Positions 1,099 to 7,983 of a stretch of 64,000 nt of DNA are shown piece by piece; position 1 is the first letter of the stretch, and each line of letters begins with the position of its first letter. The stretch covers positions 1-64,000 of the forward strand of contig JANXWB010000041.1 in the NCBI GenBank assembly GCA_025351345.1, in the 5' to 3' direction. This DNA comes from Synechococcales cyanobacterium GL140_1_metabat_312. GTDB lineage: Bacteria > Cyanobacteriota > Cyanobacteriia > Leptolyngbyales > Leptolyngbyaceae. The notes below the pieces were generated by a model, which saw nothing but the letters and a program-made list of their open reading frames with translations, searched no databases and was not told the origin of the DNA. Position numbers and translations under genes: made by a program.

Positions 1099-4000
1099 TT
1101 ACCGTTCTTGAATCAAACTAATCAAAGCATCGGTTGTAATCTTGCTACTGAGTTCTGTACCTTCTAATAAGCTATCCGCTAGATCTCGTTTTTGTTGATG
1201 CAATTGAACAATCTTTTCCTCTATTGTATTCTTTGCCACAATTCGATAAATCGTCACCGGACGCACTTGTCCCATTCGGTGGGCACGATCGGAGGCTTGA
1301 TCTTCGACCGCTGGATTCCACCAAGGATCCATATGAATCACATAATCTGCCGCCGTCAGATTCAATCCTGTACCGCCCGCTTTCAAGCTGATTAGGAATA
1401 CATCACCAACGCCAGACTGGAAGGCATCAACTCGTTTTTTACGTTCTTTCATGGGCGTACTGCCATCAAGATATTGATAGGAAACATTGTTTTCCTCTAA
1501 ATAGGCCCGAATAAAGGCTAAATGGTCTACAAATTGACTAAATACTAACGCTTTATGATTGTTTTCTAAAAGCTCCGTGAGAACTTCTCCAAACATTTGA
1601 AGCTTGGCACTTGGGAGCGCTATTTCGGGCTTAACTAATTGGGTATTGCAGCAGGCGCGGCGCATTCGCATGATTTCGGCTAGGACTTGCAAATGCTTTT
1701 GTCCCGCCATCGCATCACTATTTTCAAGTTTAGCAATCGCTTCTCGTCTGAGTGCTTCATAGAACACCATTTCCGGTTGGCTGAGTTCTACTTCTAATGT
1801 GATTTCTGTGCGGGAGGGTAGTTCAGTTAGAACTTGATTTTTAGTACGACGTAGAATGAATGGCTGAATTAACTTACGAAGACGATCGCGCACTTGTTTA
1901 TCTTGTCCCCGCTCGATCGCATTCGCATAGGTCTGATTGAAATGATCCAGAGAACCCAATAATCCAGGATTGATAAACCGAAATAGGTTCCATAGTTCAC
2001 CTAAATGATTTTCAATGGGCGTTCCCGTCGTTAGCAATTTGAAATCTGCTTGTAAATTCATCGCGGCCTGCGATCGTTTGGTGGCGAAGTTTTTAATCGA
2101 TTGAGCTTCATCCAGAACAATCATTTGCCAATGCACTTTCGCAAGCATATCCGCGACTTCTTCTTGTTGCAGCAATCCATAACTACACACCACCAAATCA
2201 AAGGGCTTCAATTCATCAAGAACCGTCTGCCGTTTTCCGCCGCCAAATTGAATTGTATTCAGCGTCGGGGCAAACCGTTGGGCTTCACTCATCCAGTTCA
2301 TACAAACAGAGGTGGGAGCGATCGCGAGAATCGGTCCATCGGGCGCACGTTGCAACATGACAGCCAAGGTTTGCAAGGTCTTACCCAATCCCATATCATC
2401 GGCCAAACAGGCCCCTACGCCCCATTTAGAAAGCCGAGACATCCACGTAAAACCTTCCACCTGATAGTCACGCAATTCAGCTTGTAAGGTTGAGGGTAAT
2501 TTTGGCTCGTAGGTTCGCAAGGATTGAATGGTGGCCATTTGGTCTTTCCAAGCTTTGTCCGCTTCCACACTGCCCATGCCCTCGATCCAATCTTCCATGG
2601 CGAGCGCGGCAAGTTTGTTGAATCGAATTCCTTTTCCATGACTTTCAGAATAGGCGCGCATTTCTTCTAGACGACGGCGAAATTCTTGGGTTAAGGCTAA
2701 AAATTGACCTTCACCTAAAGAAATAAACCGTCCGGTTGATTGATCTAACAGTTTTAATAGCGCTTGCATTTCAATGACGCTACCGTCCGGAAGTATCAAT
2801 TCACCATTCAGATTGAACCATTCATTTTGGGTTTTGAGTTTGATATGAAAATTATTTTGATCGACCGTTTGCTTAACCCGCATTTTCTCGCCTTGGGGCC
2901 ATTCTAAAATCACCCGATCGCCCAATGCCTGTAATTCCAGCAGCAGTTCTAACGAAGCTTCTGGGGTATCAATCACCCATTCTCCATCAGACTCTTCCCA
3001 CCCTAAGAGTGCCGGACATTCCTTGATAATCTCCTTTGCTAGCCTCTTTTCGTCTTTAAGTTTACGAGTCGTTTGTAATCGTTTCCCGCCTACCTCTGCA
3101 ATCACGTTTTCACCGCCGCTGCCGGGACGATAGTAGGTACCACCTTGTCCAAACGGTGACGATAATAGGGTCATTCGTAATCCCGAACCGGAGGGAAGAA
3201 GATGAACATGAGGAGTCATTAATGCCACCACTTCTTCCGCATCTGAAATATCCCCGCCAATGTCTGAATGCACCGTGACTAAGCCAGATACTCCCCCGAT
3301 CGCAGCTAATACTTTATCTTTGGCTGATTCTGGAACTTCTAAGCGATTTTTGGTGCCGAGTAATTCACTAATGCGCCGATGTTCGGGAGTGATTTCAATG
3401 ACTTTGATGCGGGTGGGGGTTTCTTTACTGAGAACAACTTCAACACCATCGGGCAATTGGGGTTCAAATTGTAATACTAGTTTTGCGCCCTTTTTCTTAA
3501 TCACTCGCAATTCAGGAGATCCCTTGACCAATTCAACTGCAATTCCAGGCGAACTTTCCCAATATACCGAGGGATGGCCCACTAATGAGATAAAGACCCG
3601 ATCGTCAAAACAATAGTCTACTTTGCCATAGTAGTTATAACGATTTTGGGCATAGCTGGTTGTAATGTGAGCGCATACTTGCAAATCGTGAGGGGTTAAA
3701 TAGGGAAATTCAGCAGGTGCGGCTTGCAAACGTTTTAAGGCGATCGGACGACCTTTATTCCAAACCCCTTTTGCATTCTGGGATTGTTCACGGGGTTGCA
3801 GCGAACTACTGTCTAAACTTGTCAAAGTCCAAATTAATCGTGTAGTTTGATTTTTAGAGCCTGTGGTTACAGCGGATTGGGTGAGATTTGCTAGAGCATT
3901 TAGGCAAAGTTCCCATGCCTCTTGAGCATCAAGAATAGGCGCGATCGGTTGATACTGTGTCCCCTCTCGCAGAATATCGGCGGCCTGAGACCAATCCCGC

Positions 4001-5322
4001 GTTGAATCTAGTTTGGCCAAGAGTTCTGCTGTTTCCATTGTGAACCACAAGTATCCGGCACTTCGAGTCCGCGAAATAAAATCTTGAAGCGGGACCACCA
4101 GACGCGATCGGGCCGCATCGACATCCGCCCAATACATACATAAGGCTGGAATTAGAACATCCCAAGGGGTATCTGGATATTCTAAATCTGCGGCAAACAG
4201 AATCGTTTTTTTAGCTAGTGAACCTTGTTTAAATTGTAAAAATGCTTCTAGAATTCCATAGGTATTTGCAAAAATCCCTTTTTGTTTACGACCCATTCCA
4301 CAGTATTCCAGCGCTTCTTGAAATGACTCGTGGGAACCTTCTTGAAGCAATGCAAGAATGAAAAGTAGTCCCATTTCATCATTAAAAAAAATCTTACGTT
4401 TTCCGAGAATCTTACGGTGTATTGCTAAACAATCTCGATAGTGGATTAATGCCGGAATTAGCCGTCCTTCTAGAAAATCGATCGCGGCTTTTAAAGGATA
4501 GCCATTGTGTTCAGGTGGTACTTTAAAACCAGCCATAGTCTTTATGACTTCTTCAATTTCACCACAGCCCAGCATTAACCGACAATATAACAATCGTTTC
4601 CAATCTAATACCTCAGGCTTTAGACACTCTTGCCGCAATAACTCAATTACGTCTTCCGCTGGGAGCAAATCCTGCATTGAATTTTCTAATACCGCCTTCA
4701 ATACCCGATCGTACCAATCCGGCGACAGCCGCCTCATCCACGCAGCATCACAAGGATTATTTGCAAATCCGGCAATACAAATAGAAGGCGTTAGAACTTG
4801 TCTAACTGAACTATAGGCATAGTATTCATCAAATAACTTATCAAGCGCCAAAACCGGATCTTGACGATATAAAACAATCCGAACTTCTCGTAAAAATCGC
4901 CCTTCACTATTAAAATATCGAGTCCCTCCACTAAATCTTGTTGTGACAGGCAAGTAGTGGTACATCGCTTCCACCATTGAGGCAAAGCGCTTTTCAACAA
5001 CAGCATCCCGTGTGGCAATTTCTCGAATTAAATGGGGGCACTGCACACCCATCATTGTTGTTTCTAATAGCTCTTTGTGAATAAGAGACAGGAGCATTTG
5101 GTCATTGAATGATTTGGATGAAAACGGGCGGCCTGACGCGTCCCGAATGCCTATACGATCGGCACAGGATAGTAATGTCGCACGGGGCAGTGGTTCACAA
5201 ATGACTGAAGCAAGCTGAATTAACTTTTGTGCCCGCTCGTCCAATCCTTGATACAACTCAAGCAGTACTGCGCGATGTTCTGCAATTGATTCAGGAGAAG
5301 ATACCATGGAACAAAAAATCAT
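1099..5322 (-). CDS. Giant SNF2-family helicase-like ATPase
   Basis: Double-stranded-DNA-dependent ATPase/translocase of superfamily 2; 1407 residues. The last third, from about residue 940, is a complete SNF2 motor: Walker A in DDMGLGKTLQTLAVML, DEAQ box in IVLDEAQSIKN, motif III in LLTTGTPIENHLGELW, then the C-terminal RecA-like lobe with LVFSQFVDHL and motifs V-VI (GGTGLNLTAADYV, DRAHRMGQ). The first 900 residues are a long helical and beta-rich region that I cannot assign to a domain. A second possible ATG lies five codons in (5307). The partner and target are unknown. No methyltransferase, nuclease or phospholipase gene of a known SNF2-containing defence system lies next to it, so a repair or chromatin-remodelling role is as likely as defence. 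Confidence 0.9.
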   Translation of the reverse strand: MIFCSMVSSPESIAEHRAVLLELYQGLDERAQKLIQLASVICEPLPRATLLSCADRIGIRDASGRPFSSKSFNDQMLLSLIHKELLETTMMGVQCPHLIREIATRDAVVEKRFASMVEAMYHYLPVTTRFSGGTRYFNSEGRFLREVRIVLYRQDPVLALDKLFDEYYAYSSVRQVLTPSICIAGFANNPCDAAWMRRLSPDWYDRVLKAVLENSMQDLLPAEDVIELLRQECLKPEVLDWKRLLYCRLMLGCGEIEEVIKTMAGFKVPPEHNGYPLKAAIDFLEGRLIPALIHYRDCLAIHRKILGKRKIFFNDEMGLLFILALLQEGSHESFQEALEYCGMGRKQKGIFANTYGILEAFLQFKQGSLAKKTILFAADLEYPDTPWDVLIPALCMYWADVDAARSRLVVPLQDFISRTRSAGYLWFTMETAELLAKLDSTRDWSQAADILREGTQYQPIAPILDAQEAWELCLNALANLTQSAVTTGSKNQTTRLIWTLTSLDSSSLQPREQSQNAKGVWNKGRPIALKRLQAAPAEFPYLTPHDLQVCAHITTSYAQNRYNYYGKVDYCFDDRVFISLVGHPSVYWESSPGIAVELVKGSPELRVIKKKGAKLVLQFEPQLPDGVEVVLSKETPTRIKVIEITPEHRRISELLGTKNRLEVPESAKDKVLAAIGGVSGLVTVHSDIGGDISDAEEVVALMTPHVHLLPSGSGLRMTLLSSPFGQGGTYYRPGSGGENVIAEVGGKRLQTTRKLKDEKRLAKEIIKECPALLGWEESDGEWVIDTPEASLELLLELQALGDRVILEWPQGEKMRVKQTVDQNNFHIKLKTQNEWFNLNGELILPDGSVIEMQALLKLLDQSTGRFISLGEGQFLALTQEFRRRLEEMRAYSESHGKGIRFNKLAALAMEDWIEGMGSVEADKAWKDQMATIQSLRTYEPKLPSTLQAELRDYQVEGFTWMSRLSKWGVGACLADDMGLGKTLQTLAVMLQRAPDGPILAIAPTSVCMNWMSEAQRFAPTLNTIQFGGGKRQTVLDELKPFDLVVCSYGLLQQEEVADMLAKVHWQMIVLDEAQSIKNFATKRSQAAMNLQADFKLLTTGTPIENHLGELWNLFRFINPGLLGSLDHFNQTYANAIERGQDKQVRDRLRKLIQPFILRRTKNQVLTELPSRTEITLEVELSQPEMVFYEALRREAIAKLENSDAMAGQKHLQVLAEIMRMRRACCNTQLVKPEIALPSAKLQMFGEVLTELLENNHKALVFSQFVDHLAFIRAYLEENNVSYQYLDGSTPMKERKKRVDAFQSGVGDVFLISLKAGGTGLNLTAADYVIHMDPWWNPAVEDQASDRAHRMGQVRPVTIYRIVAKNTIEEKIVQLHQQKRDLADSLLEGTELSSKITTDALISLIQER

Positions 5323-6177: not shown

Positions 6178-6591
6178 ACTTGGCAATTAATTTGTTGAAG
6201 GATAAATATAAGAATTTACACTTTCACAAATACCATGAAATATACGGGTTTCAGACCTATTTCGATCGAAAATATCACCCTAAAAATAGCTACACTACCC
6301 ACCAGTTGTAAAGAATTATGTATACCTTAAAACATTAATCTTCGGTGAACGTTAGTCGTGTCAAAATTAAACATTATAAAATTAGCATAGCCTTTAAGAT
6401 ACATGATCCCGTAGAAGTCCATTACCTTTGGATTTTCCGACCCTCTACTAAATTGGACCCTTATATGAGTCCACTTATCTTCCATAAATCATTATTCATA
6501 GATGACTCCCTCTAATTTGAGATCGTCGTACATAAGTGATCTGTAGCCTTCTTTGCTAGGGGCTATATATGGTTGGGATTTGAGGACTGAT
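6178..6591. other. Intergenic region between divergent genes
   Basis: About 410 bases between the divergent SDR and NYN genes. It is AT-rich and must carry both promoters. No convincing -35/-10 pair, riboswitch or RNA gene was recognised, and no open frame here looks coding. Confidence 0.5.
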
Positions 6592-7134
6592 ATGTCGGAA
6601 CGGACTCGTAAAAATGGCATCTCCGACGATCGAATGAATTGTGCTGTGGTGTTGATTGATGGTGGAAGCCTGTTTCGTGCAGCAACCCAATTAAATTTGG
6701 AGATCGATTATGAAAAGTTGTTGCCTTGTTTGCTAAAAGGTCGGGATCTAGTTCGTGCTCTTTTCTACACAGGATTCAGCTCTGGAAATCTAAAGCAGGC
6801 TTCATTTCTTAAGTGGATGCGAAATAATGGCTATCGGGTCTTGCAAAAAGAGTTAGTCATTAATTCTGATGGAAGTCGTCGCGCTAATTTAGGAGTTGAG
6901 ATTGCTATTGACATGATGCAATTTGCAAGGGCTAATGACAAAATTGGAGTCATTATTTTAGTAAGTCATAACAATGACCTAGCTTATGTTGCTCAAAAAA
7001 TATCAAGCCAGGGATTGCAATTAGAAATTGTTAGTTTGAAGTCTTTAGTGCATGAGTCATTACTTAGCTATGCCGATCGGTTTGTTGATCTAGAGAGTAT
7101 TAAAAGTGACATTCGCAAATCTTCTAATATTTGA
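6592..7134 (+). CDS. LabA-like NYN protein with degenerate active site
   Basis: A 180-residue NYN/PIN-like protein (LabA/DUF88 family), paralogous to the gene at 7348-7983. Shared blocks are IDGGSLFRAATQL / IDGSNLFYAAFQL, the LEIDYEKLL block, FLKWMRNNGYRV and the SSQGLQLEIVSLKSL block. Acidic positions expected in the metal site have changed: NLDVEIAVDM is NLGVEIAIDM here, and the SGDGDL motif is SHNNDL. The first Asp (IDG) is kept. The ATG at 6592 has GAGGA five bases before it; the frame runs upstream to a TTG at 6553 without a ribosome binding site. It probably folds like LabA but may not cleave RNA. A regulatory or partner role is an inference. Confidence 0.82.
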   Translation: MSERTRKNGISDDRMNCAVVLIDGGSLFRAATQLNLEIDYEKLLPCLLKGRDLVRALFYTGFSSGNLKQASFLKWMRNNGYRVLQKELVINSDGSRRANLGVEIAIDMMQFARANDKIGVIILVSHNNDLAYVAQKISSQGLQLEIVSLKSLVHESLLSYADRFVDLESIKSDIRKSSNI

Positions 7135-7212
7135 TGAGAGTCTAGGGGAAATGAGAATTGAGACTAGCTTCTGATTGAAAATTTGGATACTTCAAATCTT
7201 GCCGTTAAGCTG

Positions 7213-7282
7213 AGGGCACAGAAGGGAATATTCCTACAGATCCGGGTTCCAGATGCTGTAGAGGGATCGCTCACTGTGCCCT
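7213..7282. repeat. Long imperfect hairpin between convergent NYN genes
   Basis: Nested inverted repeats: AGGGCACAG (7213-7221) with CTGTGCCCT (7274-7282); CTACAG (7234-7239) with CTGTAG (7256-7261); and at the tip ATCCGG-GTT-CCAGAT with one mismatch. It lies in the 213-base gap between two convergent genes. A bidirectional terminator would fit the position, but no T-run follows either side, so a structured RNA or a REP-like element is also possible. Confidence 0.5.
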
Positions 7283-7347
7283 AAACCAACGCAATAATTT
7301 CATGCATTTCTCTAGATTATTAAATGCCTATTCCTAAGACTATTATC

Positions 7348-7983
7348 TTAGACTCCTAAGGTCTTAGAAATACTTCGTTGGATTTTGTATAAATCAGTAT
7401 ATCTATCAGCCACATTAATCAATTGATCGCTGGTCATACTGCGTAAACTAACCACTTCAACTTGGACCCCTTGAGAAGAGATAGAATCCAAAGCATAGAA
7501 CAAGTCTCCATCACCGCTTAACAATGTTATGGATTGACAATACTCGGCCATAGTGATCATATCAACCGCAATTTCGACATCTAAGTTAGCCTTTTTTGTT
7601 CCATCCGAAGTCTTAACTAACTCTTTTGTCACAACCCGATAACCATTGTGGCGCATCCACATTAGAAATCCTTTTTGTTTAGCGTTATCGGGATCAACCC
7701 CTGTATAGAAATAGGCTCTCAATAATCGCCGATCGCCGACGAGTTGTTTTAATAGTTTTTCATAATCGACCTCTATACCCAGTTGAAATGCCGCGTAAAA
7801 TAGGTTCGATCCATCAATAAATACTGAAATTCGATCGGTTTTAGTGGTCTTTGAATGGCTTGGGTAATCAATCGTATCGGCTTCTGGCAACGTGTGGTAA
7901 GTCACGCCTCGCAATGGATTGGGTATGGTGGTCGCCGATCGACCAGATAGATCTTGCGATTCCAAACTTAACTTCTTCTGCAT
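7348..7983 (-). CDS. LabA-like NYN domain protein
   Basis: A 211-residue NYN-domain protein of the LabA/DUF88 family. In Synechococcus elongatus, LabA acts in negative feedback of the KaiC-dependent circadian output; many relatives are unstudied predicted RNases. The PIN-like acidic residues all appear present: FIDGSN, NLDVEIAVDM and LLSGDGDL. The N-terminal 45 residues are polar and probably disordered; the domain begins near residue 48 (RISVFIDGSNLFYAAF). It is convergent with its degenerate paralogue at 6592-7134. The circadian role is from family knowledge, not from this sequence. Confidence 0.85.
   Translation of the reverse strand: MQKKLSLESQDLSGRSATTIPNPLRGVTYHTLPEADTIDYPSHSKTTKTDRISVFIDGSNLFYAAFQLGIEVDYEKLLKQLVGDRRLLRAYFYTGVDPDNAKQKGFLMWMRHNGYRVVTKELVKTSDGTKKANLDVEIAVDMITMAEYCQSITLLSGDGDLFYALDSISSQGVQVEVVSLRSMTSDQLINVADRYTDLYKIQRSISKTLGV

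Follow-up and report, generated by a model that had tools for sequence, protein, structure and literature searches.

The locus described here raises the question of why a cyanobacterial genome keeps a LabA-like gene whose product has lost most of the residues predicted to cut RNA. LabA is an NYN protein, and two genes of this kind lie tail to tail in the window, by which we mean the whole stretch of 64,000 nucleotides that was analysed, taken from a draft genome of 3.85 million bases in 100 contigs. They are called the plus gene and the minus gene after their strands, and the features of the locus are the following:

6592-7134, plus strand: plus gene, encoding an NYN-domain protein (PF01936) of 180 aa, with ATG at 6592 and stop at 7134
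7135-7347: intergenic stretch of 213 bases between the convergent genes, counted from after the stop of the plus gene
about 7190-7300, no strand assigned: palindromic hairpin, found by folding, which is a dispersed repeat
7348-7983, minus strand: minus gene, encoding an NYN-domain protein (PF01936) of 211 aa, with ATG at 7983 and stop at 7348

The convergent pair of LabA-like paralogues announced by the original prediction was found with these open reading frames, and both products exceeded the Pfam NYN cut-off of 24.2 bits, the plus protein with 77.6 bits over profile positions 3-145 and the minus protein with 106.5 bits over positions 1-144, of 145. A TTG at 6553 is likewise open as an alternative start of the plus gene. 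The two proteins share 52% identity over 158 residues (blastp), and their alignment is indeed domain-long, with a single gap of three residues and a score of 389 against at most 51 in 500 shuffles. No NCBIfam family matched either protein up to an E of 1. The solved structure closest to the minus protein is VPA0982 (2qip; phmmer E 3e-12), which was also the best Foldseek match of the plus protein model (E 6.9e-07, TM 0.58/0.63). This model is moderate (pLDDT 66.6) and that of the minus protein is poor (pLDDT 54.5); each single chain was modelled from three sequences, and no geometry was taken from either. Diverged copies of the intergenic hairpin occur at four places in this genome, including this one, at two in G002, at one in G001 and at none in G003, and no Rfam family matched between 5500 and 9000 up to an E of 1.

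The conserved active residues of VPA0982 are D14, D92 and D115, and their counterparts in the NYN nuclease of B. fragilis are D13, D118 and D143; the D13A substitution, at the counterpart of D14, abolishes cleavage by that enzyme, and the available text of the source describes the three Asp as absolutely conserved across the three NYN proteins that it compares (PMC11346440). The VPA0982 residues were mapped by counting by hand on the alignment, the chain numbering being that of the paper plus a constant offset of three, and with this offset all three fell on Asp residues of the minus protein, in IDG, in NLD and at the first Asp of SGDGD. The corresponding motifs are IDGSN, ANLDVEIAVDM and SGDGDL in the minus protein and IDGGS, ANLGVEIAIDM and SHNNDL in the plus protein, so that NLG for NLD, SHNND for SGDGD and the retained IDG were all read in the motif columns as had been claimed. 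The three Asp expected of an active NYN ribonuclease are all present in the minus protein (D57, D135 and D158), which is probably an active NYN nuclease, whereas one of three is left in the plus protein, where the counterparts of D14, D92 and D115 are D23, G101 and N127.

The further claim, that predicted metal-binding Asp residues had been removed from the plus protein, is right for two of the three active Asp, but of the two Asp in SGDGD, SHNND lacks just the first. The Glu of VEIA and the Asp of AIDM are also retained, which leaves D23, E103, D107 and D129 as the remaining acids, and the Asn of IDGSN is additionally lost, being replaced by S26. Judged from these residues, the plus protein is predicted to be catalytically inactive.

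Comparison of the plus gene between genomes of the genus gave dN/dS values (NG86) of 0.187 for the window and G002, 0.154 for the window and G003 and 0.145 for G002 and G003, the last two at a dS of 1.3 to 1.5, which is near saturation. The value for the minus gene was 0.214 (window and G001), and those for a neighbouring gene, an SDR-like dehydrogenase by eye, were 0.08 to 0.10. The values that could be computed with YN00 were 0.216, 0.310 and about 0.15, with 0.216 for the plus gene against 0.15 for the SDR-like gene. The constraint on the plus gene is about the same as that on the minus gene and about half that on the SDR-like gene. Loss of the predicted catalytic acids with constraint retained is well supported for the plus gene, and because its predicted cutting site is mostly lost, yet selection keeps it, its product probably acts through binding instead of cleavage.

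A pseudogene is ruled out by the dN/dS of 0.15-0.19, though G001 shows that loss of the gene is possible. There the match to the plus gene breaks off about 37 to 44 codons in, near a contig end, and the 139 bases beyond the break (L040 1-139) match 31 places in G001, with diverged forms in G000, the window genome, and in G002. This sequence is probably the end of a mobile element, one end of the insertion being visible. The plus gene is dispensable in G001, because it is cut there.

The distribution of plus-type genes was determined with a profile built from six plus-type proteins, which was searched against 388 cyanobacterial genomes drawn from the class. Intact members were found in 8 of the 388, all in the family of the window and in four genera; six of the eight had built the profile, and the count depends on a score gap (eight matches of at least 265 bits, the next dropping to 240) and excludes the broken gene of G001. 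None of the eight intact members has an internal stop. Six of the eight proteins form a supported clade (99/99) in a tree made with the acid columns omitted, and the place of the G010 copy in the tree has weak support. The plus clade is old and small, and its acid replacements are common to relatives in other genera. The view that the plus gene is a dispensable duplicate heading to loss accounts for the cut gene of G001 and for this narrow distribution; it is hard to reconcile with a dN/dS that is not above that of the minus gene, with open frames in all eight intact members and with replacements common to four genera, and we regard it as very improbable. Downstream of the plus-type gene and on the same strand, a pentapeptide-repeat-like protein was recognized by eye in L117 (3142-3738) and L118 (4383-5096); a simple motif scan found no such motif in the stretches of G034, G290 and G273.

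Within the plus clade, the second-Asp site (G101) is a glycine or a serine and the Asn of IDGSN is a serine in all eight members, and the third-Asp site is an asparagine preceded by a histidine (H126 and N127) in seven. The remaining member (L014/L117) has a glutamine and an aspartate in these two columns and retains the third Asp. D129 is kept in just four of the eight. In 63 core LabA-like rows, which were picked by motif and include one repeated locus, 112 columns vary hardly at all; all eight plus-clade members keep 41 of these columns, and the protein of the window keeps 68. Conservation of the new letters is unexceptional, since 65 of 155 columns reach 7/8 in this clade.

The acids D23, E103, D107 and D129 could still hold a metal, which counts against a pseudo-nuclease, and with them, perhaps together with H126, the plus protein might still be a nuclease. 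Such residual activity would suit the invariance of the first Asp, present in all 117 readable rows of the family alignment described below (two of its 119 rows have no readable first Asp), and that of the Glu and the Asp of VExAxD, kept in 119 of 119; the retention of H126 and N127 in seven clade members points the same way, though 65 of 155 columns match that level. The plus protein has nevertheless lost two of the three Asp termed absolutely conserved in the three NYN proteins compared (PMC11346440), and D129 is kept in only half of the clade. We consider continued cutting improbable.

The original prediction had proposed that the degenerate copy could be a regulatory partner or decoy of its active neighbour, with co-occurrence of the pair in related genomes as a check. 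Both genes were intact and adjacent in two of the four genomes of the genus, namely the window genome and G003, where the convergent order and the acid states are the same as in the window. The minus gene of G001 (L059) has all acids, and the plus gene of that genome is the cut one described above. In G002, which is 69% complete, the plus gene is present with unrelated open frames downstream; four family matches were obtained there; the three that were read include no minus-type protein, and the fourth is weaker than about 1e-10 against about 1e-43 expected for a minus-type protein. No second NYN gene was found near the plus-type gene in the stretches of 7.8 to 9.5 kb fetched from G010, G013, G034, G290 and G273 (five of five), that of G290 having just 0.9 kb on one side before the contig end. 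The expected co-occurrence therefore did not hold up.

A recent tandem duplication may be the origin of the pair: the plus and minus groups are unjoined in the free tree, yet AU tests do not reject their joining (p 0.096 and 0.141). The same results bear on a specific heterodimer of the two products of the locus. The adjacent, convergent arrangement with the same acid states in two genomes, and a joining of the two groups that is not rejected, are what such a dimer would lead one to expect; the incomplete pair in G001 and G002, the five plus-clade genomes with no NYN neighbour found and the separation of the groups in the free tree speak against it, and we give it very little probability. A special partnership of the plus protein with the neighbouring minus copy is thus weakly supported, and what stands of the partner or decoy idea is acid loss with retained constraint. 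The plus protein may be the partner of another family member, for example a core LabA-like protein, or a decoy on shared RNA.

Six NYN matches were found in the genome of the window: a core LabA-like copy (L001), a LalA-type copy (L002), the minus gene, L004 with a threonine for the third Asp, the plus gene, and L006. The last of these (G000:C33:55733-55963) is weak and has a stop codon inside its frame. Core LabA-like copies with all acids are also present in each of the seven further genomes where the plus-type gene is intact, and thus in eight of eight, and L001 is 91% identical to the core copy of G290 and 90% to that of G273. In the tree, both window genes lie outside the highly conserved core clade shared across cyanobacteria, which contains L001. 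The core clade, and not the window genes, is likely the counterpart of LabA, the closest counterpart here being a third gene, on contig C53; the core clade was taken as LabA, and the labels of L001 and L002 are based on how conserved and how widespread the genes are, and not on comparing them with LabA and LalA themselves. Beside the core gene, a metS-like gene and another open frame were recognized by eye. When a collection of genome contigs was scanned for relatives, two loci were all that it yielded.

LabA and LalA of Synechococcus elongatus have roles in circadian output (PMC5520375, PMC7205874), and labA of this organism has an effect on kaiBC expression through RpaA (PMC7205874). The circadian link drawn earlier for the window genes holds by analogy only, their closest LabA counterpart being the third gene. 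An absence of LabA from Prochlorococcus and from most marine Synechococcus has been reported (PMC5520375). No match at 1e-30 was found in 70 of the 388 genomes, and among those listed 17 of 20 belong to one family whose genomes listed here measure 1.6 to 3.0 million bases; this is consistent with the absence reported in the available text of that source. A connection with a neighbouring RNase III gene, prompted by PMC7660261, was dropped after a motif scan found none in 158 loci, which mostly reach about 1.5 kb from the NYN gene.

The results of our survey of the family showed that a non-acidic residue is present at the second or the third Asp in 29 of 119 proteins, and at both sites in 11, in a sample where degenerate copies may be over-represented, most rows having been collected by using the plus protein as query against 58 related genomes, and nine by the class-wide profile search. 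These 119 rows remained of 144 after removal of three fragments (141 rows) and of loci repeating the same gene, according to a hand-made list. Of the 11 double losses, seven belong to the plus clade; the other four fall in a separate clade that carries an asparagine and a threonine (100/100 in the tree). If the tree holds, double loss would have arisen at least twice, because L014, which lies inside the plus clade, retains the third Asp. The tree comprises 95 rows and excludes L094, a single gene split into two frame fragments, and when a glutamate at the second Asp is scored as lost, 30 of the 95 have lost an acid, with eight changes by parsimony and at least two forced by starred branches; its bootstrap is unsettled, with 37 of 84 inner branches open.

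Intact and degenerate NYN copies also adjoin in a second arrangement, for which no excess over chance is claimed. In four genomes of two genera (G005, G021, G031 and G273), an intact copy and a copy with the second Asp changed to Asn form divergent pairs about 0.8-1 kb apart:

L044, 2092-2811 (minus strand) and 3815-4477 (plus strand): divergent pair of intact and second-Asp-to-Asn NYN genes
L045, 2109-2750 (minus strand) and 3726-4463 (plus strand): divergent pair of intact and second-Asp-to-Asn NYN genes
L046, 1985-2626 (minus strand) and 3396-4028 (plus strand): divergent pair of intact and second-Asp-to-Asn NYN genes
L163, 1486-2106 (minus strand) and 2920-3501 (plus strand): divergent pair of intact and second-Asp-to-Asn NYN genes, one cut by the end of the stretch (G273)

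These pairs favour a composite active site, in which the plus protein would pair with an active NYN paralogue, either its neighbour or a core LabA-like protein, and raise its activity. A precedent exists in the PIN superfamily, where the SMG5 PIN domain, without catalytic residues, completes the site of SMG6 in nonsense-mediated decay (PMC12923823), and the first Asp and the Asp of VExAxD, which are retained in the plus protein, would be in keeping with such a role. The pair of the window is, however, intact in just two of four genomes of the genus, the stretches fetched from the five others showed no NYN neighbour, and the NYN domain of MARF1 is monomeric in solution (PMC6294520). A shared site is, in our judgement, unlikely.

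The reading that we prefer, and to which we give an even chance, is that the plus protein is a LabA-like NYN pseudo-nuclease that selection maintains and that acts by binding and not by cutting. It would no longer cut RNA and would retain its fold and binding surface; it would share its RNA, or its protein partners, with the active paralogues, and by binding them it would protect or sequester them. The minus protein would be a probably active NYN nuclease, and the two need not cooperate. RNA binding is assumed here from the family, and the targets, the partners and the loss of cleavage are what we infer. A wider and rather doubtful extension is that the family has a whole layer of pseudo-nuclease LabA-like proteins, with at least two origins should the tree be right. 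Their NYN pocket would be rebuilt and not merely lost, so as to bind RNA or a nucleotide but not cut it, and the proteins would tune active LabA-type enzymes. In the plus clade, the rebuilt pocket would be mostly His-Asn for the Gly-Asp of SGDGD, and the second Asp would be replaced by Gly or Ser.

NYN nucleases and LabA are already known, as is a dead PIN-fold paralogue with a function in eukaryotes. The literature searched, which was mostly that available without subscription, yielded no account of degenerate LabA-like clades in cyanobacteria, and no report of RNase activity of LabA was found there either, in sources of which a part was available. The mode of action of LabA-type proteins in cyanobacteria is not settled in the literature consulted. 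Here the same genomes encode proteins that have the predicted catalytic acids and others that do not, with similar constraint on one of each, which makes it possible to ask whether LabA-like function needs RNA cleavage.

Comparison with known systems places the plus protein as follows. VPA0982 has the same domain (NYN/DUF88, or LK-nuclease; PMC2848206), and the plus protein is without the counterparts of its D92 and D115. The NYN domain of MARF1 and the CRISPR-associated NYN protein of B. fragilis are demonstrated ribonucleases with three active Asp each (PMC6294520, PMC11346440), against one in the plus protein. LabA and LalA of S. elongatus have the NYN family in common with the window genes, but neither of these is the core LabA-like gene, and the clock role belongs to the S. 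elongatus LabA. The likeness to SMG5 and SMG6 lies in a paralogue with lost catalytic acids beside an active one; those are eukaryotic multi-domain proteins with a demonstrated interaction, whereas any interaction of the plus and minus proteins is hypothetical. The locus offers a bacterial setting for the question that SMG5 and SMG6 pose, namely why nuclease paralogues without catalytic residues persist.
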